A stretch of 34,609 nt of DNA from Rhodovarius crocodyli (GTDB lineage Bacteria; Pseudomonadota; Alphaproteobacteria; Acetobacterales; Acetobacteraceae). The notes under the pieces are model-generated. The model was not told the DNA's origin. It did not search any database and saw only the letters and a list, made by a program, of their open reading frames with translations. Position numbers and translations under genes: made by a program. Shown one piece after another: positions 1 to 13,334 of the stretch. Location of the stretch: positions 1 through 34,609 of the forward strand of contig NZ_SACL01000018.1 of the NCBI RefSeq assembly GCF_004005855.1, read 5' to 3'. Position 1 is the stretch's first letter. The number at the start of each line of letters is the position of its first letter.

Positions 1-59
1 GGCTCATCCGCATCGCCGCGAGCGACGTGGAACGCTTCATCAGGAGCAGCAGAGCATAA
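1..59 (+). CDS. C-terminal end of an excisionase-like helix-turn-helix protein (partial)
   Basis: Only the last 18 codons are inside the window, read from base 3 to the TAA at 57-59. They give a tail resembling LIRIAASDVERFIR. This is how many MerR/excisionase-type (HTH_17) DNA-binding domains end: the wing strand with a basic arginine, then a D/E-V-E-R-F-I helix. Such proteins direct excision by integrases or act as small repressors. Its place just ahead of a recombinase operon, in the same direction, fits that role. The family call rests on a very short stretch and the 5' part cannot be seen. Confidence 0.5.
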   Translation, partial: LIRIAASDVERFIRSSRA

Positions 60-171: not shown

Positions 172-203
172 TATATTCCAACCTAGTCCGCCGGAGATAT
201 CTT

Positions 204-2018
204 ATGTCCACTTTGCTGGTTGCCACGGTCGGTGCTGACCTCCCGCCGCCCGCTTTCCTGTCCCAGGTCGCTGACCGCATCGCCGCCGACCTCTCCTTGC
301 CCGCCACCAGGCGCGGGGAGATCCGCTCCGCCCTCCGGGCACTGGCTGCCGCAGCCGGCCAGATGCTCGATGCGATCCCGGCAAACGCCGCCCATATCCG
401 CGGCTTGCTCAGGCACCGTTCCGCCGCTGCCGCCGGGCTGACGCGTGATCGCTGGACCAATGTCCGCTCGCTGGTCTGCACGGCACTTCTGCGTGTGGGC
501 GTGCTCACCCTGCCCAACCGCATCGCGGAGCCACCCTCCGACGCTTGGCAGGCCCTGCTCGCGCGCGTCAGCGGCAAGGGCGAGATCGCCATGCTGGGCC
601 GGTTCGCCCGTTGCTGCACGATGCTCGATGTCGAGCCCGATCAGGTCAACGATAGCTTCATGGCACGCTATCGGACTGAGCTCGTCGAGCGCAGCCTGGT
701 GTGTGAGCCGGAGAAGGTGGTGCGCGAAAGCGCCATCGCCTGGAATAATGCATCGAGGACCGTGGATGGGTGGCCGCGGATCACGCTGACGGTGCCTAAT
801 AACAGCCTCTACTACACGCCCGGATGGGCGACCTATCCAGCGACCTTGGTTGCCGATGTCGAGCGCTGGCTGGCGGGGCCGCCCAGCACGAACATTTTCG
901 CCAAGGACAATCCCAGGCGGCTGCGGGAGGCGACGGTCATCTCCTGCCGGGATCACCTCCGGCTGCTGCTCGGCGGCATGGTGCTGCGCGGTGTCGATGC
1001 TGCCTCTCTGGTGGATCTCCGTGCGGCGATCACGCCGGCGCATGTTGAGACATCCTGCCTGTTTCACCACGAGCGGGCGGGAGGCACGATCAATTACGTC
1101 ATGGCCAAGATGTCCGGCATCGCACTGGCTATCGCCACCCATCATCTCGCTCTCACCGGCCCGCCGCTGGAGCGCCTGCAGCAGATTGCCCGTGAACTGC
1201 GCTTCAAGAAGTCCGGTGATCGCATGACGGTCCGGAACAAGGAGCGTCTGGTCGCGATGGGTGATGCCATGGGCCCCGATCGCACACGGCTCGATGTCCT
1301 TCTGAATCTGCCGCAGACGCTGCGGTCGGAGGTCGATGCCGCGGTCAAACAGCATGGCGGCAGCACCTACGCGCTGGCGCTGCAGTATCAGGTGGCGCTG
1401 ATCCTCGAGCTTTGCCTGACCAAATCCTGGCGGATCAGGAATCTCGGCAACCTGGTGATCGGGGAGACGCTGATCCTGCGCCCGGATGGGCGTGCGGTGG
1501 CGATCTTTCGGGAGGATCAGACCAAGACCCGCACGCCGATCGAGACGACGCTGGGCAGCCGCGCCACGAGCATGCTGCACGACTACCTGCGGGTTCACCG
1601 CCCGCTGCTGGGCGACGCAAGCTCAGCGTATCTGTTCCCGGGCAAGCAGGCTGGCAGGCCCAAGACGTTCGGGGCGATCAATGCCAGCGTCAAGGTGATC
1701 ACGTGGGAGCGGGTCGGCGTGCAGATGACGGTCCATTTTTTCCGTCACCTCGCGGGTGACATCATTCTCAGGCAGGATCTGGGCGCCCTGCATATCGTGC
1801 AGGACCATCTGCACCATGCCGACATCAGCACCACCAAGAGCTTCTATGTCGGGATGCGCAGCGCGCAGGCGACGCGGCACTATGACGAGCTGCTGGAGCA
1901 GCAGCGCAGCAGCATCAGGGGCGCTGGCAGCGGCGGTGGCGGTGGCGGTGGCGGTGGCGGTGGCAGCCACGCGGTGGCCCGTCGCATCGCCCGCCCCCAG
2001 AATAGGCGGGCAACCTGA
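204..2018 (+). CDS. Large tyrosine recombinase (first of recombinase trio)
   Basis: A 604-residue site-specific recombinase/integrase. The C-terminal catalytic domain shows the expected order: Arg410 in SWRIRNLGNL, a lysine in the DQTKTR hairpin, His511-x-x-Arg514 in VHFFRH, His538 in HLHHAD, and nucleophile Tyr548 in KSFYVG. The first 380 or so residues are an unfamiliar DNA-binding extension, making it longer than a typical 300-400 residue integrase. After the catalytic domain there is an 11-glycine run (577-587) coded by a hexanucleotide repeat, then a basic tail. The ATG at 204 has GGAG 7 bases ahead. It overlaps the next recombinase gene by one base, so the two are translationally coupled. 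Chemistry is secure; target site and accessory factors are not visible. Confidence 0.9.
   Translation: MSTLLVATVGADLPPPAFLSQVADRIAADLSLPATRRGEIRSALRALAAAAGQMLDAIPANAAHIRGLLRHRSAAAAGLTRDRWTNVRSLVCTALLRVGVLTLPNRIAEPPSDAWQALLARVSGKGEIAMLGRFARCCTMLDVEPDQVNDSFMARYRTELVERSLVCEPEKVVRESAIAWNNASRTVDGWPRITLTVPNNSLYYTPGWATYPATLVADVERWLAGPPSTNIFAKDNPRRLREATVISCRDHLRLLLGGMVLRGVDAASLVDLRAAITPAHVETSCLFHHERAGGTINYVMAKMSGIALAIATHHLALTGPPLERLQQIARELRFKKSGDRMTVRNKERLVAMGDAMGPDRTRLDVLLNLPQTLRSEVDAAVKQHGGSTYALALQYQVALILELCLTKSWRIRNLGNLVIGETLILRPDGRAVAIFREDQTKTRTPIETTLGSRATSMLHDYLRVHRPLLGDASSAYLFPGKQAGRPKTFGAINASVKVITWERVGVQMTVHFFRHLAGDIILRQDLGALHIVQDHLHHADISTTKSFYVGMRSAQATRHYDELLEQQRSSIRGAGSGGGGGGGGGGGSHAVARRIARPQNRRAT
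1932..1964 (+). repeat. GGCGGT hexanucleotide tandem repeat
   Basis: Five and a half copies of GGCGGT lie in frame near the 3' end of the first recombinase and encode eleven glycines. A hexamer unit changes length without shifting frame, so slippage would only vary the linker before the basic C-terminal tail. Confidence 0.9.
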
Positions 2019-3166
2019 TGGCGATCCAGCAGAGCAAGGTCGCCGTGCCTCCCAGGAGGACCAAGCGCCCCCGTCTCGAGTTCGAGCAGTGGCCCGCATC
2101 CGACCGGGCGGCGTGGGAGATGGCGTGCAAGCCGTCGGGCTTTCTCTCGCCTGGCGGCAAGGGAGCCAATTGGCGTCCCGCTACCAGCGACAGCCTGATC
2201 GGGAATTACGGGCGCTGGCTGGGCTTTCTGTATAATCGCGGCTGGCTATTAGACAGCGAGGCACCGGCAGACCGTGTCACCCAGCCTCGCATCCTCGCGC
2301 TGATCGGCATGCTGCAGCGGGACTATGCGCCGGTGACCGCCACCGTCGCTGTGTCACAGCTGCTGATGGCCCTGAATGCCATGTGCCCGGCGACTGACTG
2401 GGCCTGGCTCCGGAACGCGCGCGCCAACCTCCAGCGTGAGGCGCTACCGCTGCGCCATAAATCCGAGCGGGTGCAGGAGAGCCGGGAAATCGTCGATCTA
2501 GGCCATCAGCTGATGCAGCAGGCGGAGGCGCTGACCATGACCGATCCGGAGCGGGCGGCGAACCTGTACCGGGACGGGTTCATGATTGCCCTGCTCGCCA
2601 TGCGGCCCTTTCGTCGGCGGAATTTCCTGAGCATCGAGATCGGGCGTCATCTCCTGCGATCCGGTAGCAGCTGGAGTTTCTCCTTTGCCGCAGAGGAGAC
2701 CAAGAACGGCCGCGCCATCGCCCGGGAGTTCCCCAGCGAGCTGCTGCCGTGCCTGACCCGCTATCTGGAACGCCATCGGCCTTGCCTCCGACGGTCGACC
2801 AAGGGCGGCAGTTCCACCGACCGCGCCTCGGCGGTTAACCGGCTGTGGATCTCCAGCCGCGGGAACCCGATGTCGCTGACCGCCTTTGCGCGCAGCATCG
2901 CCCATCACACCGAGCGGCACTTCGGACGCGCGATGCACCCGCATGCGTTCCGGCACTCGGCGGCGACCTCAATGGCGCGGGTGGATCCCGCCCATGCCTA
3001 TGTCGCCATGGATGTGTTGGACCACGCCGATATCGCGACGACGCAGAGGCACTATATCGCGGCCAGGAGCGAGCGCTCGCATGAGCTTGTGGAGGCGCTC
3101 ATCGAGGAGAGGCGGCAGGCGGTCACTGGCCTTCTGACACCGGCTCGAAAGGGTAAGGTTCCATGA
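2018..3166 (+). CDS. Tyrosine recombinase (second of recombinase trio)
   Basis: A 382-residue tyrosine recombinase with a SAM-like N-terminal domain (about 45-150) and a complete catalytic domain. Visible residues are the arginine cluster RPFRRRNF at 196-203, a lysine in EETKNGR, His309-x-x-Arg312 in HAFRH, His336 in DHAD, and Tyr346 in QRHYIAA. It starts within the stop of the upstream recombinase (TGATGG) and its stop overlaps the third gene by 4 bases, so the three are almost certainly co-translated. It is not a close copy of the first recombinase. The pair recalls TnpA/TnpB of Tn554-type transposons and the Recombinase-In-Trio arrangement, where several non-identical recombinases act together. 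Specific partner roles are inference. Confidence 0.9.
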   Translation: MAIQQSKVAVPPRRTKRPRLEFEQWPASDRAAWEMACKPSGFLSPGGKGANWRPATSDSLIGNYGRWLGFLYNRGWLLDSEAPADRVTQPRILALIGMLQRDYAPVTATVAVSQLLMALNAMCPATDWAWLRNARANLQREALPLRHKSERVQESREIVDLGHQLMQQAEALTMTDPERAANLYRDGFMIALLAMRPFRRRNFLSIEIGRHLLRSGSSWSFSFAAEETKNGRAIAREFPSELLPCLTRYLERHRPCLRRSTKGGSSTDRASAVNRLWISSRGNPMSLTAFARSIAHHTERHFGRAMHPHAFRHSAATSMARVDPAHAYVAMDVLDHADIATTQRHYIAARSERSHELVEALIEERRQAVTGLLTPARKGKVP

Positions 3167-4917
3167 GCGCGGCAATGCACCGGCACGCATCGCCTCCGGC
3201 ACGGGCCGGGCGTCGGGCATCGACGTTGCCTGGCACCTCTGCCCAGCCGCGGGTGGCGCTGTATGCGCGCTATTCCAGCGACCGGCAGTCGGAGAACTCC
3301 ATCGAGGACCAGTTGCGCATTTGCCGCGAGCGGGTCGAGCGTGAGGGCTGGCAGTTGGTGCGCAGCTATCAGGATGCGGCCATCTCAGGCTCCACGGCGG
3401 ATCGGCCTGGGTTCATCGCGCTGCAGGCGGCCATGCGGGCCGGCGAGATCGACATCGTGTTCTCCGAGGCGCTGGACCGCATTTCCCGTGACCAGGAGCA
3501 TGTCGCCCGTTTCTTTAAGCTGGCAAATTTCACCAATGTCCGGCTGGTCACGATCAGCGAGGGGGAGGTGTCGACGCTGCACATCGGGCTCAAGGGCACG
3601 ATGAATGCGATGTATCTCCAGGACCTCGCGGCCAAGACCCGGCGAGGTCTGGAGGGGCGGGTGCGGGCAGGTCGCAGCACGGGGCCGGCGCCTTATGGCT
3701 ATCGGCGTGTCACCAGCGTGTTGCGGCCTGACGGCGAGATCGACCGTGGTCTTTGGGAGATCGTGCCCGAGCATGCCGCCATCGTCAGGCGGATCTTTGA
3801 GGAGTACGCGCAGGGGCATACGGCGGGGGTGATCGTGCGGCGCCTCAACGCCGATGGTGTTCCGGGGCCGCGGGCGAATGGTTGGAACACCATGACCGTG
3901 CGCGGTCGTCCCAGCCATGGCGATGGTATCCTGCGCAACCGCGCCTATCTGGGCGAGATGGTGTGGAACCGCCGGCGGCGTCTGGTGGATCCCACCACCG
4001 GGCAGTTGCATCGCCGGCTGAATGCGGTGGATGAGCGGGTGACCGGCCTGGCGCCGCAGTACCGTCTCATCGATCAGGCCTTGTGGGATGCGGTTCAGGC
4101 GCGGTTGTCCAGCGAGGCGGCACCACCGGACCCGACGACCGGTGCGCTGAAGTTCTGGGAGCGCCGCAAGCCGCAGTATCTGCTCTCGGCCAAAATCAAT
4201 TGCGGGGTGTGTGGCGGTCCGTTCTCGATCCAGACGGGAAAGTACGCCTGCAACAACCGGCCCAGGGGTTTGTGCACCAACCCGGTCAGGCTCGATCGCA
4301 AAGCCCTGGAGGATCATGTGCTGGTCATCCTGTCGGAGCACATGATGGAGCCGGAGCTGGCCCGGGCCTTTGCCGAGGAGTTCAGTGCCGAATGGGACCG
4401 GCTGGCCGGGCAGCGCAGGCATGATGAGGCGCGGAACCGTCGGGAGTTGGAGGCTGCGGAGAAGAAGCTCGACAATCTGATCGATGCGATCGCGGCCGGC
4501 ATGCGCAGCGCGGCGCTGCAGGCCAAGCTCGATGAGGCGGAAGGTGAGGTGGCGCGGCTGAAGGCGGCCAGCATGCAGGGCACCGCCGCTCCCGTTAGGA
4601 TGCGGCCGGATATTGGCGTCATCTACCGGCAGACCATGCGCGAGCTTAGGATTGCGTTGGAGGGGCCGGACAACGCCGCGGCGCTGGAACTGGCGCGCTC
4701 GCTGATCGAGCGTGCTGTCGTTCATCCTGGCAACGGCAAAGCAGCGCCAGTCGTCCAGGTTGAAGGCATGCTGGGCGCCATGATGAAGATGGGGCAGCCA
4801 GAGCTCAGCGGCAGCATCCTTAGCGGCGCACCGAAGGTCCTTGCCGTGGCTGACGCAGCACTTGCAGCACCGGCGAGCCGCGGAAGGAGATTGGGGATCG
4901 GTCCGCCGGACATCTAA
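3163..4917 (+). CDS. Large serine recombinase (third of recombinase trio)
   Basis: A 584-residue large serine recombinase. After about 30 basic residues the resolvase domain begins with VALYARYSSDRQ, where Ser38 is the expected nucleophile, followed by the LDRISRD motif. The Recombinase domain spans roughly 160-300. A zinc-ribbon follows with Cys347, Cys350, Cys363 and Cys371, and then a charged coiled-coil at about 400-465 that in phage integrases controls integration versus excision. All parts are present, so it should be active. The ATG at 3163 overlaps the stop of the second tyrosine recombinase (ATGA type). Finding a serine recombinase as the last gene of an operon with two tyrosine recombinases is unusual, since the two families use unrelated chemistry. 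Confidence 0.92.
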   Translation: MSAAMHRHASPPARAGRRASTLPGTSAQPRVALYARYSSDRQSENSIEDQLRICRERVEREGWQLVRSYQDAAISGSTADRPGFIALQAAMRAGEIDIVFSEALDRISRDQEHVARFFKLANFTNVRLVTISEGEVSTLHIGLKGTMNAMYLQDLAAKTRRGLEGRVRAGRSTGPAPYGYRRVTSVLRPDGEIDRGLWEIVPEHAAIVRRIFEEYAQGHTAGVIVRRLNADGVPGPRANGWNTMTVRGRPSHGDGILRNRAYLGEMVWNRRRRLVDPTTGQLHRRLNAVDERVTGLAPQYRLIDQALWDAVQARLSSEAAPPDPTTGALKFWERRKPQYLLSAKINCGVCGGPFSIQTGKYACNNRPRGLCTNPVRLDRKALEDHVLVILSEHMMEPELARAFAEEFSAEWDRLAGQRRHDEARNRRELEAAEKKLDNLIDAIAAGMRSAALQAKLDEAEGEVARLKAASMQGTAAPVRMRPDIGVIYRQTMRELRIALEGPDNAAALELARSLIERAVVHPGNGKAAPVVQVEGMLGAMMKMGQPELSGSILSGAPKVLAVADAALAAPASRGRRLGIGPPDI

Positions 4918-5531: not shown

Positions 5532-8500
5532 ATGACAACGACCAAAGCCGAACGCGAGCTTGAGGACGCATTTCTCTCAAAGCTGACGGACCTCAAGTAC
5601 GATTACCGTCCCGACATCCGAGATCGCGCCACGCTGGAGCGAAACTTCCGTGAGAAGTTCCAAAGCCTGAATCGTGTCAATCTCACCGACGGCGAATTTC
5701 AGAGGCTAATAGACGAGATCGTCACTCCTGACGTTTTCACCGCTGCTCGAATGATTCGAGAGCGCAATAGTTTCACGCGTGACGACGGCACGCCGCTGAA
5801 CTACATGCTCGTCAACATAAAAGACTGGTGCAAGAACTCCTTCGAGGTGGTCAACCAGCTTCGCATCAACACCGACAACAGCCATCATCGGTATGATGTC
5901 ATTCTGCTGATCAACGGAGTTCCAGTCGTTCAGATCGAACTGAAGACTCTCGGCATAAGCCCGCGTCGCGCCATGGAGCAGATCGTCGAATACAAGAACG
6001 ACCCGGGGAGTGGCTATACAAAAACTATCTTGTGCTTTATTCAGCTCTTCATCGTCAGCAACCGGGATCGGACGTTTTATTTTGCAAACAACAATGCGCG
6101 CCATTTCGCCTTCAATGCCGAGGAGCGTTTTCTGCCGGTCTACGAGTTTGCCGACGTAGACAACAAAAAGATTGTCCACCTCGATAGCTTTGCCGAGACT
6201 TTCCTCGTCAAATGCACCCTCGGCCAGACAATCAGCCGCTACATGGTTCTGGTCGCAAGTGAGCAGAAGCTCCTGATGATGCGGCCGTACCAGGTCTACG
6301 CCGTGAAGGCGATTGTCGACTCCATCGCGCAAGATTGCGGCAATGGCTACGTCTGGCACACGACCGGCAGCGGCAAGACGCTCACGTCATTCAAGGCGTC
6401 AACGCTCCTCAAGGACAATCCGGACATTGAGAAGTGCCTCTTCGTTGTGGACCGAAAGGACCTCGATCGGCAAACGCGCGAGGAGTTCAACAAGTTCCAG
6501 GAAGGCTGCGTCGAGGAAAACACCAACACCGCCTCACTCGTTCGTCGCCTCGTCTCCGACGACTACGCCGACAAGGTCATCGTCTGCACGATTCAGAAGC
6601 TTGGCCTTGCGCTGGATGAAAACAGCAAGCGCAACAAGCAGCAGAAAAAGGACGGCAAAAAGAGCTTCAAGGAACAGCTCGAACCCCTGCGCGACAAGCG
6701 CATCGCGTTCATCTTTGACGAATGCCATCGGTCGCAGTTCGGCGAGAACCATCAGGCCATCAAGGAATTCTTCCCGCGCGCCCAGCTCTTCGGCTTCACG
6801 GGAACGCCGATCTTCGATCAGAACGCCGCCCAGCAGAAGATCGAAGACACGCAAGCCAGCATGAAGACGACGGAAGATCTCTTCCAGCAGCGCCTTCACA
6901 CCTACACGATCACGCATGCCATCGAGGACGGCAACGTCCTCCGGTTCCACGTCGACTACCTCAAGCCGCAGGGCAAAACCCTACCCAAGCCGGGCGAACC
7001 TCTGGCCAAGCGGCCGGTGATCGAGGCGATCCTCTCCAAGCATGACCAAGCCACCGGTCAGCGTCGGTTCAACGCCCTGCTCGCAACATCTTCGATCAAT
7101 GACGCCATCGAGTATCACTCCCTTTTCAAGACGATACAGGCCGAGAAGCTGGCCGCCGATCCCAGCTTCCGCCCGCTGAACATCGCCTGCGTCTTCTCTC
7201 CGCCCGCCGAGGGCGATCCTGATGTCAAGCAGATCCAGGAAGACCTGCCGCAGGAGAAGGAAGACAACGCGGTCGAGCCGGAAAAGAAGAAGGAAGCCCT
7301 GAAGGCCATCCTCGCGGATTACAACGCCCACTACGGCACCAACCACAAGATTGGTGAATTCGACCTGTATTACCAGGATGTTCAGAAGCGCATCAAAGAC
7401 CATCAATGGCCGGATGCCGACCTCCGCAAGGCTTACCCCAATCAGCCGCACCACAAGATCGACATCACGATCGTGGTGGACATGCTGCTGACGGGCTTTG
7501 ACTCAAAGTTCCTGAACACCCTCTACGTCGACAAGAACCTGAGGCATCACGGTCTCATCCAGGCCTTTTCGCGCACCAACCGCGTGCTGAACGCCACTAA
7601 GCCCTATGGCAACATCCTCGACTTCCGGCAGCAGCAGGGCGCGGTCGATGCCGCGATTGCTCTCTTCTCGGGCGAGGCCGCTGCCGAAAAGGCCCGTGAA
7701 ATCTGGCTGGTCGACAAGGCTCCGGTGGTCATCCAGAAGCTGGAAACTGCCGTCCAGAAGCTCGACGCCTTCATGAAGTCGCAGGGTCTCGATTGCGCCC
7801 CGGAAGCCGTGCCGAACCTGAAGGGCGACGCGGCCCGCGCGGCGTTCATCGAACATTTCAAGGAGGTTCAACGCCTCAAGACCCAGTTGGACCAGTATAC
7901 CGACCTGACGGACGAGAACCGCACCGCCATCGAAGAGGTCCTGCCGCGCGACAACCTGCTTGGCTTCCGGGGCGCCTATCTGGAAACCGCGCAGCGCCTT
8001 CGGGCGCAGCAGGGCAAGGGCCAGGATCAGGGCGACGGCAAGCCGAGCCAGGACGCCGACCAACTGGACTTCGAATTCGTCCTCTTCGCCTCGGCCGTCA
8101 TCGACTACGACTACATCATGGGCCTGATCGCCCGCTATTCCGAGGCGACGCCGGGCAAGCAGAAGATGAGCCGCGCGGAGCTGATCGGCCTGATCCAGTC
8201 CGATGCCAAGTTCATGGACGAGCGCGAGGATATCGCGGCCTACATCAATACCCTCAAGGCTGGCGAAGGCTTGAGCGAAAAGGCCATTCGCGACGGCTAC
8301 AGCCGCTTCAAGTCGGAAAAGAGTGCGGCAGAACTGGCGGGCATCGCGGGCAAGCACGGGCTGGCGACCGAGGCGCTGCAAGGCTTTGTCGACACCATCC
8401 TGCAACGCATGATTTTCGACGGCGAGGCGTTGACCGACCTGATGGAACCCCTTGGCCTGAACTGGAAGACGCGGCGGGTGAAGGAACTGGACCTGATGGC

Positions 8501-8573
8501 CGACCTGTTGCCGCTGCTGCTGAAGCGCGCCGGTGGCCGCGAGATTTCGGGGCTGAGCGCTTATGAGCAGTAA
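5532..8573 (+). CDS. hsdR: Type I restriction enzyme, endonuclease/translocase subunit HsdR
   Basis: A 1013-residue HsdR, normal length for the family. The N-terminal nuclease domain has the PD-(D/E)xK pattern Asp122, Glu136-Leu-Lys138 (IELK). The SF2 motor has Walker A TTGSGKT (277-283), the DECH box (396-399) and motif III GFTGTPI, followed by a RecA2 domain around 540-720 and a helical C-terminus that docks on the methylase core. HsdR translocates DNA and cleaves at a distance from unmethylated recognition sites when bound to HsdS and HsdM. It is the first gene of the operon, preceded by an AT-rich promoter region. Its last 11 bases overlap hsdS. GC content is lower than the chromosome to the right, consistent with horizontal acquisition. 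Confidence 0.96.
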   Translation: MTTTKAERELEDAFLSKLTDLKYDYRPDIRDRATLERNFREKFQSLNRVNLTDGEFQRLIDEIVTPDVFTAARMIRERNSFTRDDGTPLNYMLVNIKDWCKNSFEVVNQLRINTDNSHHRYDVILLINGVPVVQIELKTLGISPRRAMEQIVEYKNDPGSGYTKTILCFIQLFIVSNRDRTFYFANNNARHFAFNAEERFLPVYEFADVDNKKIVHLDSFAETFLVKCTLGQTISRYMVLVASEQKLLMMRPYQVYAVKAIVDSIAQDCGNGYVWHTTGSGKTLTSFKASTLLKDNPDIEKCLFVVDRKDLDRQTREEFNKFQEGCVEENTNTASLVRRLVSDDYADKVIVCTIQKLGLALDENSKRNKQQKKDGKKSFKEQLEPLRDKRIAFIFDECHRSQFGENHQAIKEFFPRAQLFGFTGTPIFDQNAAQQKIEDTQASMKTTEDLFQQRLHTYTITHAIEDGNVLRFHVDYLKPQGKTLPKPGEPLAKRPVIEAILSKHDQATGQRRFNALLATSSINDAIEYHSLFKTIQAEKLAADPSFRPLNIACVFSPPAEGDPDVKQIQEDLPQEKEDNAVEPEKKKEALKAILADYNAHYGTNHKIGEFDLYYQDVQKRIKDHQWPDADLRKAYPNQPHHKIDITIVVDMLLTGFDSKFLNTLYVDKNLRHHGLIQAFSRTNRVLNATKPYGNILDFRQQQGAVDAAIALFSGEAAAEKAREIWLVDKAPVVIQKLETAVQKLDAFMKSQGLDCAPEAVPNLKGDAARAAFIEHFKEVQRLKTQLDQYTDLTDENRTAIEEVLPRDNLLGFRGAYLETAQRLRAQQGKGQDQGDGKPSQDADQLDFEFVLFASAVIDYDYIMGLIARYSEATPGKQKMSRAELIGLIQSDAKFMDEREDIAAYINTLKAGEGLSEKAIRDGYSRFKSEKSAAELAGIAGKHGLATEALQGFVDTILQRMIFDGEALTDLMEPLGLNWKTRRVKELDLMADLLPLLLKRAGGREISGLSAYEQ

Positions 8574-9795
8574 GGGGAAATCGTCTACAGCGGCCGGAGG
8601 AAAGGTTGCATTGGTCCCGAAGGTGCGGTTCCCGGAGTTTCAGACGGCCAGCCCATGGGAGTACAAGCCTCTGGCACCATTCTTGAGGGACTGCAGCGGC
8701 CGCGTTCCTTCCAACACCTCGTTGCCTGTCTTCAGCTCGACGAGAGATGGTCTGCGGCGCCAAGATACATACTTCGACGGCAGGGTCCTTCAGAATAACA
8801 ACGACTATGGCGTGGTGCCGCCCGGATGCTTCGTTTACCGCCACATGAGCGATGACGGCTCGTTCAAGTTCAACATCAATGACACCGGCGGCGAAATCGC
8901 AGTTAGCAAAGAATATCCTGTCTTCAAAACCGTCGGGCTCGATCCCAAGTTTCTGCTCGAAATTCTGAACGAGAGCCAAGATTTCAAGAGTTTCGCTTTC
9001 TCCCAAAAGGCGGGCGGCACGCGTACCAGATTGTATTTCAGCAAGCTCCGCGAATGGCGGACCGCTCTGCCGACGCTCTTAGAACAACAAAAGATCGCCG
9101 ACTGTCTGAACTCGGCGGACGAACTGATTGCCGCGCAGGGGCGGAAGGTGGACGCGCTGAAGGCCCACAAGAAGGGCCTGATGCAGCAGCTTTTCCCCCA
9201 GGCAGGCGAAACCCAACCCCGCCTCCGCTTCCCCGAGTTCGAGGGAACGGGGGAGTGGTCAGTAAAGCCGCTCGGTAAAGCTGCCGAAAATCTCGACAAT
9301 CAGCGTGTTCCGATAACTTCAGGTGACCGCGTCGCTGGAGATGTTCCCTATTATGGCGCCTCGGGGATCGTTGACTATGTCGAGGGCTACATCTTTGACG
9401 AAGACCTCCTTTGCGTCTCAGAGGACGGCGCAAATCTTCTTGCTCGAACCTATCCAATCGCTTTCGCGATTTCTGGAAAGACATGGGTTAACAACCATGC
9501 GCACGTCCTTCGATTCAAGCATGGGTTCACCCAGAAGTTTGTCGAAGTCTATCTAAACTCGATCAAACTGGACGACTTCATAACGGGAATGGCCCAGCCG
9601 AAGCTCAACAAGGCGAAGCTCGACAGCATTCCGATGCCGCTCCCCAAGGAACCTGAGCAGAAGCGCATCGCAGACTGCCTCTCCTCCCTCGACAACCTCA
9701 TCGCCGCCGAGACCCGAAAGCTCGACACGCTCAAGACCCACAAGAAGGGGCTGATACAGCAGCTTTTCCCCTGGGGCGGGGAGGCTGACACATGA
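8563..9795 (+). CDS. hsdS: Type I restriction enzyme, specificity subunit HsdS
   Basis: A 410-residue HsdS built of two half-repeats. Each half opens with an RFPEF motif, continues with a variable target-recognition domain (about 20-170 and 220-360) and ends in a conserved helix. The helices are similar: KIADCLNSADELIAA...KKGLMQQLFP at about 174-212 and RIADCLSSLDNLIAA...KKGLIQQLFP at about 365-403. The two recognition domains read the two halves of a bipartite DNA sequence and the helices set the spacing. The sequence of the target cannot be deduced. The start lies inside the hsdR end and the stop overlaps the next gene by 4 bases. The coding DNA at the two helix ends is nearly identical and could recombine. 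Confidence 0.95.
   Translation: MSSKGKSSTAAGGKVALVPKVRFPEFQTASPWEYKPLAPFLRDCSGRVPSNTSLPVFSSTRDGLRRQDTYFDGRVLQNNNDYGVVPPGCFVYRHMSDDGSFKFNINDTGGEIAVSKEYPVFKTVGLDPKFLLEILNESQDFKSFAFSQKAGGTRTRLYFSKLREWRTALPTLLEQQKIADCLNSADELIAAQGRKVDALKAHKKGLMQQLFPQAGETQPRLRFPEFEGTGEWSVKPLGKAAENLDNQRVPITSGDRVAGDVPYYGASGIVDYVEGYIFDEDLLCVSEDGANLLARTYPIAFAISGKTWVNNHAHVLRFKHGFTQKFVEVYLNSIKLDDFITGMAQPKLNKAKLDSIPMPLPKEPEQKRIADCLSSLDNLIAAETRKLDTLKTHKKGLIQQLFPWGGEADT
9166..9772 (+). repeat. Direct repeat of about 34 bp at the two HsdS spacer helices
   Basis: Bases 9166-9199 and 9739-9772 agree at 31 of 34 positions. Both code for the KKGL(M/I)QQLFP end of the conserved helices. Recombination between the copies would delete or swap a recognition half-domain. 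Confidence 0.8.
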
Positions 9796-11021
9796 GCACC
9801 TACAAGAACCTGAAAACTTTGGTGGTCAGACTTCGTGACGATCTGAACAATCCAACTGGGCCAGTCTCGCTGGTCTTGATCTATGCCTACAACCGCACCG
9901 GCAAGACACGTCTGTCGATGGAGTTCAAGGACGCGGGGAAACGCAAGACCAAGAAGAACCCGACCGGCACGCCTGACACGCTCTATTTCAATGCCTTCAC
10001 AGAGGATCTGTTCGTCTGGGAAAACGACCTCGAAGGTGACAGCGTTCGCCGCCTGAAACTGAACGAAAAGTCATCCTTCTTCAACGCGATGACGGAACTC
10101 GCACTGGACGAAACAATTGCGGGTTATCTTTCCCGATATGCCGATTTCGATTTCGACTTCACCTATAAGGAAATTCAACAGGACAACGAGACCATCTCCA
10201 AGCCTGATTTCGTGAGCTTCCGAAAGGGCGATCAGTCCAATATCAAGGTTTCGCGGGGTGAACAGAATATCTTTGTCTGGTGCATCTTCATGGCCATCTG
10301 CGAACGGATGCTGGATGGGCATGAATCCTATCAGGAGAAGAAGTATCTCTATATCGACGACCCGATCTCGTCGCTGGATGACAACAACGCGATTTCCGTG
10401 GCCTGCGATCTGGCTAAGTTTCTCCGCCGGGCAGCCACGCGGAAGGATGCTGCCGGAGGGCCCGCCCCGATCAAGGTGATCTTCTCGTCCCACCACGCGC
10501 TGTTCTTCAACGTCATGTGCAATGAAATGGGCAGGCGGACCGATGGCGAACCGAAGATCACCCACAAGCGCTATTTCCTGCACCGCCCCAACGGCGACGG
10601 CGCTTACACACTTCAGGCGACCGAGGATACGCCCTTCTTCCACCACGTCGCCACTTTAGCCGAGTTGCAGCGTGCCGCCGATCCCGACAAGGGGAAGCTC
10701 TACACCTTCCACTTCAACGCCTTGCGCAGCGTCATGGAGAAGACAGCCTCTTTCTTCGGTCATCCAAGCATGGCCTTCTGCTTGAAGGCGCTGAACAACG
10801 AAGAAGACCGGGCGCTGTTCAACCGGGCCCTGAACCTGCTGAGCCACGGCGCCTATGCCATCCATGAACCCACAGAGATGGGCGAGGACAACAAGGAACT
10901 GTTCCGCCGCATCCTGCGCGAATTCATCGCGCGGTTTGAGTTCGCACTGCCAGGCGTTGCCGCCGCCCAAACCGAAATCCCGGCGCCCGCGCCCGCCGCA
11001 GAGGAAGCACCCGCACAATGA
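9792..11021 (+). CDS. PrrC-like ABC ATPase, putative anticodon nuclease
   Basis: A 409-residue protein of the AAA_13/PrrC type. The ATPase part has Walker A AYNRTGKT (32-39), an ABC signature SRGEQ (154-158), Walker B YLYIDDP with a D-loop SSLDDN (185-198), and a switch histidine in SSHH (232-235). The C-terminal domain carries Arg312-x3-Glu316 (LRSVMEK) and His352 in LLSHGA. Escherichia coli PrrC, about 396 residues, uses Arg320, Glu324 and His356 to cut tRNA-Lys in the anticodon loop when phage inactivates its type I restriction partner. Spacing here is 4 and 36 residues, against 4 and 32 in PrrC. It lies between hsdS and hsdM with 4-base overlaps on both sides; prrC is likewise inside an hsd operon. 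Anticodon cleavage is inferred from residues and context. A tail rich in Ala, Pro and Glu follows residue 388. Confidence 0.75.
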   Translation: MSTYKNLKTLVVRLRDDLNNPTGPVSLVLIYAYNRTGKTRLSMEFKDAGKRKTKKNPTGTPDTLYFNAFTEDLFVWENDLEGDSVRRLKLNEKSSFFNAMTELALDETIAGYLSRYADFDFDFTYKEIQQDNETISKPDFVSFRKGDQSNIKVSRGEQNIFVWCIFMAICERMLDGHESYQEKKYLYIDDPISSLDDNNAISVACDLAKFLRRAATRKDAAGGPAPIKVIFSSHHALFFNVMCNEMGRRTDGEPKITHKRYFLHRPNGDGAYTLQATEDTPFFHHVATLAELQRAADPDKGKLYTFHFNALRSVMEKTASFFGHPSMAFCLKALNNEEDRALFNRALNLLSHGAYAIHEPTEMGEDNKELFRRILREFIARFEFALPGVAAAQTEIPAPAPAAEEAPAQ

Positions 11022-12640
11022 ACGACCACAACCAAAAACAGCTGGGCAAAACGCTCTGGAACATCGCGGATACGCTCCGCGGCGCGATGAATGCGGACGA
11101 TTTCCGCGACTACATGCTGTCGTTCCTCTTCTTGCGCTACCTCTCTGACAATTACGAGATGGCCGCGAAGAAGGAGCTTGGGCGGGACTATCCCGATCCC
11201 AACGCAATCGGCAATGGCGGGCGCTCGCCCCTATCGGTGTGGTACGCGCAGAATCCCGATGATGTTGCAGATTTTGAAAAGCAAATGCGTCTCAAGGCGC
11301 ACTACGTCATCAAGCCGGAACACCTCTGGACCAGCATCGCTCATATGGCGCGCACCCAGAACGACCAACTGCTGAACACCCTGCAGGCGGGCTTCAAATA
11401 CATTGAGAACGAGTCCTTTCAGAGCACGTTCGGCGGTCTTTTCTCTGAAATCAATCTTGGCTCTGACAAGCTCGGCCGGACATACGCTAATCGCAACGCC
11501 AAACTCTGCGCCATCATCACGGAGATCGCCGAAGGGCTCGTCGACTTCTCGTCCGACGTGGATGCGCTGGGCGACGCCTACGAATATCTGATCGGCCAAT
11601 TCGCCGCCGGCTCGGGCAAGAAGGCCGGTGAGTTCTATACCCCGCAGCAGGTGTCAGACATCCTTTCGGCAATCGTGACGCTCGACAGCCAGGAACCCGC
11701 CACCGGGAAGAAACAAAGGCTCGCCAGCGTGCTCGATTTCGCGTGCGGCTCCGGTTCGCTGCTGCTCAACGTGCGCAAGCGCATGGGGCCGCACGGCATC
11801 GGCAGAATCTACGGGCAGGAAAAGAACATCACCACCTACAACCTGGCCCGGATGAACATGCTGTTGCACGGCGTTAAGGATACGGAGTTTGAAATTTACC
11901 ACGGCGACACGCTGATTAATGACTGGGACATCCTGCGCGAGTTGAATCCCGCCAAGAAGCCCTCCTTTGATGCCATAGTGGCTAACCCGCCCTTCAGCCT
12001 GCGCTGGGAGCCGACTGAGGCGATGGGCGACGATGTGCGGTTCAAGAATTACGGGATTGCGCCAAAGTCGGCCGCGGATTTCGCCTTCCTGCTTCACGGC
12101 TTCCATTATCTGAAGGATGACGGCGTCATGGCCATCATCCTTCCTCATGGCGTGCTGTTTAGAGGCGGAGCGGAAGAACGCATTCGAACCAAGCTGCTGA
12201 AGGATGGCCACATCGACACGGTCATCGGCCTGCCTGCGAACCTGTTCTATTCTACGGGTATCCCAGTCTGCATCCTTGTTTTGAAGAAGTGTAAGAAGCC
12301 CGACGACGTACTCTTTATCAACGCGGCTGAGCACTTTGCGAAGGGCAAGCGTCAGAACCAGCTCACGGACGACCATATCCGCAAGATCCTCGAGACCTAC
12401 CAGTTCCGTAAGGAAGAGGAGCGCTATTCCAAGCGTGTGAGCATGGAGCGTATTGCTGAGGAGGGCTTCAATCTCAACATCTCCCGTTACATCAGCACCG
12501 CTGTGGGCGAGGAAGAGATCGATCTGTCAGCCACTCAGGACGAGTTGGTTGATATCCAAAAGCAGATCCGGGACGCAACTTTGAGGCACAACGCCTTCCT
12601 GAAAGAACTTGGACTTTCCCTGTTGCCGGGCGCCGAATGA
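11018..12640 (+). CDS. hsdM: Type I restriction enzyme, DNA adenine methyltransferase subunit HsdM
   Basis: A 540-residue HsdM. The helical N-terminal domain (LWNIADTLRG...FLFLRYLSD) is followed by the N6-adenine methyltransferase fold, with SAM-binding motif I LDFACGSGS near 239-247 and catalytic NPPF at 323-326. With HsdS it methylates the recognition site and protects host DNA. It is the last gene of the operon, starting within the stop of the PrrC-like gene (ATGA). Having the methylase last and the endonuclease first is the reverse of the common hsdM-hsdS-hsdR order. A small hairpin (GACAT/ATGTC, about 12651-12665) lies 10 bp after the stop. Confidence 0.96.
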   Translation: MNDHNQKQLGKTLWNIADTLRGAMNADDFRDYMLSFLFLRYLSDNYEMAAKKELGRDYPDPNAIGNGGRSPLSVWYAQNPDDVADFEKQMRLKAHYVIKPEHLWTSIAHMARTQNDQLLNTLQAGFKYIENESFQSTFGGLFSEINLGSDKLGRTYANRNAKLCAIITEIAEGLVDFSSDVDALGDAYEYLIGQFAAGSGKKAGEFYTPQQVSDILSAIVTLDSQEPATGKKQRLASVLDFACGSGSLLLNVRKRMGPHGIGRIYGQEKNITTYNLARMNMLLHGVKDTEFEIYHGDTLINDWDILRELNPAKKPSFDAIVANPPFSLRWEPTEAMGDDVRFKNYGIAPKSAADFAFLLHGFHYLKDDGVMAIILPHGVLFRGGAEERIRTKLLKDGHIDTVIGLPANLFYSTGIPVCILVLKKCKKPDDVLFINAAEHFAKGKRQNQLTDDHIRKILETYQFRKEEERYSKRVSMERIAEEGFNLNISRYISTAVGEEEIDLSATQDELVDIQKQIRDATLRHNAFLKELGLSLLPGAE

Positions 12641-12718: not shown

Positions 12719-13227
12719 CGAGGTGTCGGCGACGAGTGCCAGGCACTCGCGCGTATAGTCGTCGACGATGGCGAGCACCCTGAAGCGGCGACCGTCCGAG
12801 AGCGTGTCGGAGAAAAAATCGAGGCTCTAGCGCGCATTGGCCCGATCAGGCACGAGTATGGGTCTGCGCGTGCCCAGTGCCCTTTTGCGGCCACCGCGCC
12901 GGCGCACCAGCAACTTCTCCTCGCGATAGAGCCGCCGCAGCTTCTTCTGGTTCATTACGATGCCCTGGCGGTCCAGCATGATGTGGATCCTGCGATAGCC
13001 GAACCGCCGGCGCTCTCCTGTCACGGCCTTCATCGCCTCGCGCAACAGGGCATCGTCCGGCCGGGTGCTCATGTAGCGCACCGTCGAGCGGTCGATCGTC
13101 AAGGCCAGGCACGCCCGACGCTGGCTCACCGCATGCACCGTGCAGGCATAAGCCACCGCCTTCCGCTTCGCATCGGGCGTCACCATTTTTTTGCAGCGAC
13201 ATCCTTCAGGATCGCGTTGTCGAGCAT
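12719..13227 (-). pseudogene. Degenerate IS3-family transposase (orfA tail plus orfB fragment)
   Basis: The last 15 codons of orfA (MLDNAILKDVAAKKW, 13180-13227) lead into orfB at 13186. The join is an A7 run, the classical slippery site for -1 frameshifting in IS3 elements. OrfB shows the HTH_21 region (ERRRFGYRRIHIML), then LVRRRGGRKRALGTRRP. An amber codon at 12827-12829 replaces the usual Trp of the N-x-R-W-S-L-D-F segment. Reading on in frame gives the start of the DDE domain, FFSDTLSDGRRFRVLAIVDD, which stops abruptly after LVADTS where unrelated sequence begins. Most of the DDE core is missing, so the element cannot transpose on its own. It resembles the IS407-like branch. Confidence 0.85.
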
Positions 13228-13334
13228 CGCCACACGATATGATCGCCGAGCCGATGTCTTTCTCAGCGCCGTCTTCCTCGCAGCCACCCTCACCCGGTGG
13301 TTATGAGTCCGAAGCCTAAGTGATGAAAGAAAGA

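Follow-up and report, generated by a model that had tools for sequence, protein, structure and literature searches.

A serine recombinase gene behind a tyrosine recombinase pair: a probable end operon of integrative islands in the Acetobacteraceae

The window analyzed here, the entire 34,609-bp contig C9 of the 48-contig Rhodovarius crocodyli genome (the query genome, G000), begins with three closely packed recombinase genes, encoding a long tyrosine recombinase (Y1), a shorter one (Y2), and a large serine recombinase (S). Comparison with relatives indicates, with a probability that we put at roughly 0.65, that this trio belongs to an operon at the end of an integrative island. S would be the integrase, and Y1, Y2, and a helix-turn-helix (HTH) gene upstream of them would form a separate module that was placed several times between S and a small gene with the motif LVRxLARQAAR, here called ARQ. 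We propose that ARQ-HTH-Y1-Y2-S is an operon at the island end and that S links the right end of the island, formed by the 3' terminus of its own gene, with a site in the host, usually the 3' end of a tRNA-fMet gene in an rRNA operon. The S frame would close in host DNA with the tRNA kept whole, and further islands could later enter at this tRNA and form tandem arrays. The HTH-Y1-Y2 genes would be a co-evolving tyrosine recombinase module, also found without S, that has repeatedly been placed between ARQ and S. Y1-Y2 may offer a second recombination route; our guesses for its use are excision, the resolution of tandem arrays, or transfer of the module from one island to another.

The trio and its recurrence

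The features of the window that concern the element are as follows, where C14 is a second contig of the query genome that carries a similar trio.

3..59, + strand: 3' end of an HTH (excisionase-like) gene, truncated by the contig start (read by eye; homologs in relatives)
204..2018, + strand: Y1, long tyrosine recombinase, 604 amino acids (Pfam PF00589 [Phage_integrase], catalytic residues, dN/dS)
2018..3166, + strand: Y2, shorter tyrosine recombinase, 382 amino acids (Pfam PF00589 [Phage_integrase], catalytic residues, dN/dS)
3163..4917, + strand: S, large serine recombinase, 584 amino acids, probable integrase (Pfam, Ser38 column, PHROG 95, dN/dS)
4886..4917, + strand: probable right end of the element, the last S codons, which probably come from flanking host DNA (stop of C9/C14 homology; analogy)

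A first-pass annotation made from the window alone had described the three genes as one coupled operon with intact active sites. On re-reading, their coordinates and their overlaps of 1 nucleotide (nt) between Y1 and Y2 (TGATG) and 4 nt between Y2 and S (ATGA) hold. The catalytic residues Tyr548 of Y1, Tyr346 of Y2, and Ser38 of S each fall in an invariant column in alignments of 15, 10, and 15 proteins, respectively (Ser38 is numbered S22 on the first row of its alignment). R410, K441, and R514 of Y1 are likewise invariant, with H511 and H538 kept at a level of at least 90%, and so are R199, K229, H309, and R312 of Y2. With the Resolvase (PF00239), Recombinase (PF07508), and Zn_ribbon_recom (PF13408) domains and its intact active site, S has the features of a large serine recombinase (LSR); it matches the PHROG 95 integrase family (1.4e-89) and the structures of TP901-1 and TnpX. 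Which start codon S uses is not certain. In addition to the ATG overlapping Y2, in-frame starts lie 9, 60, and 87 nt beyond the Y2 end, so the 4-nt overlap may not mark the start in use. Bases 3 to 59, in a frame chosen by eye, translate as LIRIAASDVERFIRSSRA followed by a stop codon and resemble the end of the HTH gene upstream of Y1 in relatives, where homologous HTH genes form a cluster of 54 loci (one was assigned to MerR/HTH_17 by Pfam). Near the Y1 C terminus (about 1930 to 1970) lies a glycine-rich tract of GGT/GGC repeats, and the C14 copy has one too.

The trio on contig C14 (L009) has protein identities to that of the window of 96% (Y1), 95% (Y2), and 93% (S). The ratios of nonsynonymous to synonymous substitution (dN/dS) between the two copies are 0.168, 0.190, and 0.190, respectively, the last computed up to base 4885. 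All three genes are under selection in the query genome.

The first-pass annotation had left it to a genome search whether the Y-Y-S order recurs, and it does. An earlier profile of five Y1 sequences had found only 3 loci in genome contigs; one of 15 proteins matched 89 of 397 family genomes at E ≤ 1e-10, some of them weakly (about 1e-11). Sixty stretches from the upper part of this match list were combined with the earlier loci into a set of 80 classified loci, a few of which lie outside the family (Azospirillum, Pukyongiella, Roseovarius, G042, and G050). The raw labels were Y1-Y2-S (YYS) for 36 loci, Y1-Y2 without S (YY) for 29, and unclear for 15. L039 and L133 (weak and distant resolvase matches) were reassigned to YY by hand, and L040 (fragments), L108, and L118 (S of another subfamily, about 1 kb off) were set aside from YYS. 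The result was 31 tight YYS loci, with the same order and strand and at most 218 nt between the Y2 stop and the S open reading frame, and 31 YY loci. The query genome contributes two of the former, the window and C14; the latter include one plasmid counted twice (L024 and L076) and L034, which is adjoined by a divergent S. Some YYS loci (L025, L081, L107, L111, L117, and L121) have broken S, Y1, or Y2 frames. One frame of 1,057 amino acids (L096, 659 to 3832) combines matches to Y1 and to a later portion of S, with Y2 missing, and is perhaps a deletion remnant.

The genes also stay together beyond the family. In a class-wide sample, Y1 was found at E ≤ 1e-50 in 13 of 385 genomes, the query included. 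Among nine further loci from other families, S stands directly behind Y2 in five (in two pieces in L202), lies 976 bp away in one, and is absent in two, the remaining locus being cut; ARQ is matched in six of the nine. Neither Y1 nor Y2 had a match at E 1e-5 among 50,697 phage records.

Insertion targets and island ends

The contig ends inside S or at most 310 bp after it in 18 of the 31 tight trio loci. An inversion switch was considered as the cause of these breaks and dropped, as rRNA operons explain most of them. The DNA beyond S could be read in 25 loci, of which 14 have an antisense tRNA-fMet gene there and 11 have something else. ARAGORN calls a complete tRNA-fMet spanning the S 3' end in 13 of the 14, while L106 ends inside the tRNA, and a 5S rRNA then follows in the loci tested with Rfam (L143, L149, L150, and L152). 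The final residues of these S proteins (AGTGFEPVTFRL and variants) are encoded by the antisense of the tRNA. The 11 other ends include those of the window and C14. Three of the 11 adjoin the 3' ends of genes for a pirin, a zinc alcohol dehydrogenase, and a 2-hydroxyacid dehydrogenase (L095, L102, and L124), at distances of 1, 8, and 46 nt; no convincing end repeats were seen for these protein-gene targets within the stretches examined. In the other S subfamily (L108 and L118), S ends in tRNA-Arg and tRNA-Glu genes. With S ending at tRNA genes or the 3' ends of host genes, the idea that cargo lies downstream of S was rejected for the relatives.

Two near-complete genomes, G245 (one contig) and G347 (two contigs), allowed whole islands to be delimited. 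Copies of the tRNA 3' end, upstream of S and in the same orientation, bound an island of 23,121 bp in G245 and one of 17,844 bp in G347 (island 1). The same kind of copy gives a second G347 island of 28,966 bp, and a further, older copy lies at 48,736 bp. The repeats of the three islands and the older copy are 13, 14, 14, and 15 bp long; the longest match in an opposite-strand control was 11 bp, and when the tails were shuffled, 8 to 29 of 2000 trials per case produced a 13-mer match (including the serine-only genome G221, discussed below). Remnants detected by the S profile precede the left ends of the G245 island and G347 island 1. The DNA before G347 island 2 resembles the S end of island 1, although the profile finds no S there, and a 5' S fragment lies just inside island 2. 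No profile match to S occurs at the 48.7-kb copy. The two G347 left ends start alike (GTTCGGCTTATGGAG). A crossover within the anticodon loop that duplicates half of the tRNA was rejected, since neither G347 nor G245 has a duplicated half; the common core is the last 11 to 15 nt of the tRNA.

The cargo differs from island to island. On G347 island 1 are a restriction-methylation gene of type ISP/IIG, a PLD-SNF2 helicase, and a dynamin-like protein that has a BrxL-like end. An AcrB-type pump and a histidine kinase are encoded in the portion of island 2 that was read, and the G245 proteins tested yielded one HTH protein and one subthreshold ATPase. The relatives in G245 and G347 have defined ends (attL/attR) and changing cargo. 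This agrees with the earlier suggestion of a mobile module, inasmuch as the flanks change and the trio of these relatives is part of islands with recognizable ends. A fixed module length, which that annotation had proposed to look for, does not apply to the islands, which vary from 17.8 to 29.0 kb, but the distance from the ARQ stop to the Y2 stop is 3.1 to 3.8 kb in the 19 loci measured.

For the window element, it is the right end that can be placed. DNA homology between C9 and C14 spans 175 to 4885 and ends 32 bp before the S stop codon, and this comparison, together with the analogy to relatives, suggests that the right end lies within about 4886 to 4917. Because the window is a whole contig, the region left of Y1 is absent from it; by analogy, the rest of the HTH gene, any ARQ, the left end, and the cargo would lie off the contig.

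Probably separate histories of the serine and tyrosine recombinases

An S profile of 15 proteins matched 56 of 200 family genomes at E ≤ 1e-60. Twenty serine-only loci were chosen, mostly for a match that reaches the tRNA-encoded tail, from genomes with no Y1 match or one of about 1e-11; the exception, G100, has strong Y1 matches on two other contigs. None of the 20 has Y1 or Y2 next to S (in L171, a 43-bit integrase match lies 2.9 kb off on the other strand), and a tRNA-fMet gene was called beside S in 13. In 17 of 21 serine-only loci (these 20 and L034), ARQ lies ahead of S, directly in 15 and at 0.8 to 1 kb in 2. It is found ahead of HTH-Y1-Y2 in 19 of the 26 tight YYS loci that have at least 900 bp upstream, in contrast to 2 of 26 YY loci. 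These positions show the trio operon to be ARQ-HTH-Y1-Y2-S, with tightly overlapping genes, and the serine-only operon to be ARQ-S. In the serine-only genome G221, which has no Y1 match, a 14-bp copy of the tRNA end is found 44.2 kb upstream, next to a terminator-like hairpin, as a left end would be. Near the S end of this genome (L169), a second tRNA-end copy (TCGTTGGTTGCGGGG) precedes the tRNA by some tens of bases, which would fit a very short segment left behind between two attachment sites.

Pairwise distances were compared among 25 loci that have the complete trio and whose target is known; this set differs from the 25 readable loci above in that L034, L108, and L118 were included, and L025, L117, and L121 were left out. 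Y1 and Y2 distances correlate (Mantel r = 0.81; 0 of 2000 permutations as high), whereas the Y1-S and Y2-S values are −0.02 and 0.00; a reduced locus set gave 0.80, 0.08, and −0.01, respectively. Y1 and Y2 therefore co-evolve, and S is unlinked to both. Changes between tRNA-fMet and other targets number 2 on the S tree (1 without L108 and L118), 4 on the Y1 tree, and 5 on the Y2 tree, compared with a mean of 8.7 and minima of 4 (S), 5 (Y1), and 4 (Y2) for shuffled targets. Of the three trees, that of S agrees best with the target; those of Y1 and Y2 also depart from a random distribution of targets.

S is most likely the integrase, judged from these sequence comparisons: serine-only genomes have it at the insertion site, the inserting end of the island lies in its gene, and its tree is the one that best fits the target. 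The first-pass annotation had supposed that movement needs both recombinase types, an idea that the serine-only loci at the same tRNA-fMet and the YY loci without S do not support. Its alternative, S as a switch or resolvase, is less likely than an integrase for an LSR whose gene ends at the insertion site and whose tree the target follows. The Y1-Y2 pair seems to be co-inherited and to have been placed before S more than once, and we infer an insertion of the Y module, not a loss of it in the serine-only forms. We offer more tentatively, at less than even odds, the idea that HTH-Y1-Y2 is a mobile or mobilized module that docks repeatedly between ARQ and the start of a serine integrase gene. 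One island would then combine two recombination systems of unrelated chemistry, S picking and joining the tRNA while Y1-Y2 handle excision, tandem resolution, or module transfer. Insertion of HTH-Y1-Y2 with a target duplication was considered and, for the 19 loci compared, rejected. Two tyrosine-only copies on one contig (L126 and L131, G260:C6) have about 3.85 kb in common and are differently interrupted by inserts; they could be an element with its own ends.

Several observations weigh against S as integrase and a separately placed Y module. The share of tRNA-fMet among serine-only loci is biased, because the loci were picked for reaching the tRNA-encoded tail. All but G221 of the 11 testable serine-only loci have no tRNA-end repeat of more than 11 bp within 18 to 54 kb. 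No repeat of at least 11 nt, as a target duplication would leave, was found between the two HTH-Y1-Y2 junctions of 19 loci. ARAGORN finds no tRNA in the window, where the S end adjoins none.

The strongest rival explanation, which we nonetheless consider rather unlikely, is an old five-gene operon that has mostly been inherited whole, with serine-only and tyrosine-only loci as losses and S sometimes replaced by recombination between islands. The tight overlaps along ARQ-HTH-Y1-Y2-S would fit it, as would the trio in five of nine loci from other families. On the S tree (46 rows), trio and serine-only forms change only 6 times (shuffled, 15.5), with which loss of the Y module agrees as well as gain. 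Against it stand the S distances uncorrelated with those of Y1 or Y2, the S presence scattered over the Y1 tree (77 rows) with 15 changes (unclear rows and L034 left out) to 20, and the absence of ARQ from most YY loci.

In a second rival, less likely still, integration and excision of the trio islands through the 13- to 15-bp tRNA core would be the work of Y1-Y2, the HTH protein serving as excisionase and S as an accessory resolvase or target selector. Tyrosine integrases typically use a core of this length and position at a tRNA 3' end, so the core is what such an enzyme would use, and an excisionase-like HTH partner suits an integration pair. Moreover, tRNA-end repeats occur in all three trio islands tested compared with 1 of 11 serine-only loci, which leaves tyrosine-driven integration of the trio islands some room, and the Y1 tree likewise groups loci by target, with 4 changes where no shuffle had fewer than 5. 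Yet genomes that lack strong Y1 matches have serine-only loci at this tRNA, the site is adjoined by S and not Y2, the target tracks S best, and the identity at the tRNA end may merely reflect restoration of the tRNA. Chance neighborhood in a variable region, where recombinases gather and where 31 of the 80 Y1 loci do without S, is refuted by the 31 loci with the same order, strand, and close spacing and with common HTH and ARQ partners.

Related systems and surroundings of the window

Like the integrative elements of TP901-1, TnpX, and other phage and transposon integrases, the trio islands have an LSR with all three domains whose gene adjoins the insertion site. They differ in that S is translated behind a tyrosine recombinase pair and in that the 13- to 15-bp core at the tRNA 3' end is long for an LSR. 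Islands of the GInt type (ginABCD) are described as having a recombinase operon at the island edge, variable cargo, and imperfect direct repeats, and the trio resembles them in these respects (PMC5385486). The three GInt integrases are all of the tyrosine type, the word "serine" does not occur in the portion of the text searched (PMC5385486), and the trio has a serine recombinase in place of a third tyrosine integrase with a small GinD. RIT (recombinase in trio) elements, according to the part of the source consulted, consist of three overlapping tyrosine recombinase genes and are common in alpha- and betaproteobacteria (PMC3414803); here, too, three recombinase genes overlap, but the third is of the serine type.

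The same source describes, in the part consulted, Tn554-like elements as an adjacent long and short tyrosine recombinase plus a third gene, a layout that the trio shares (PMC3414803). In the Tn554-like set of plasmid pNL1, the one such set compared, the order is short-long-TnpC instead of long-short-serine recombinase. The Y1 and Y2 profiles match only the catalytic part of its short enzyme, reach at most 10.4 bits with the long one, and find no TnpC match, so that homology to TnpA/TnpB together with a TnpC is lacking. Plasmid pNL1 also carries three adjacent genes (NC_009426.1, 102783 to 108180, L212) for an integrase, a 595-amino-acid protein, and an integrase, a layout by which we take this set to be of the GInt sort; Y1 and Y2 match only the catalytic domain of its first gene. 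The tripartite integrative and conjugative elements of Mesorhizobium likewise combine several integrases, tRNA sites, and integrase swapping in one mobile system, but their integrases are described, in the portion consulted, as acting on three chromosomal fragments and not as one operon (PMC8627217). Literature searches in an open-access subset of PubMed Central listed no element of Y-Y-S make-up. The loci described here would represent a family of alphaproteobacterial islands that combine tyrosine and serine recombinases in a single operon although the two kinds evolve independently. They could serve as a testable system for integrase swapping in mobile elements and for the reason why two chemistries are kept, and they offer serine recombinases with a defined, conserved tRNA target.

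Downstream of the trio, the window carries a type I restriction-modification cluster, hsdR-hsdS-prrC-hsdM (5532 to 12640), which probably lies outside the element given a right end near 4886 to 4917. Its third gene (9792 to 11021) matches PrrC, an anticodon nuclease. A stretch of about 510 bp (12719 to 13228) is 95% identical to a region of C14 (L009, 133 to 642) that we read as an IS3-like transposase. Two congeners, compared with the window for the order of its chromosomal genes, did not reveal an empty site of the window element. Elsewhere in the query genome, the end of contig C47 has a tRNA-fMet gene with a remnant of an S 3' end (E 5e-6), and the start of C46 has one without an S match; both copies are at contig edges, and their flanks diverge directly after the tRNA. 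Contig C48 (G000:C48, 902 to 7060) holds a further tyrosine recombinase pair, with frames of 378 and 559 amino acids, and a resolvase match in a 222-amino-acid frame about 4 kb further on.

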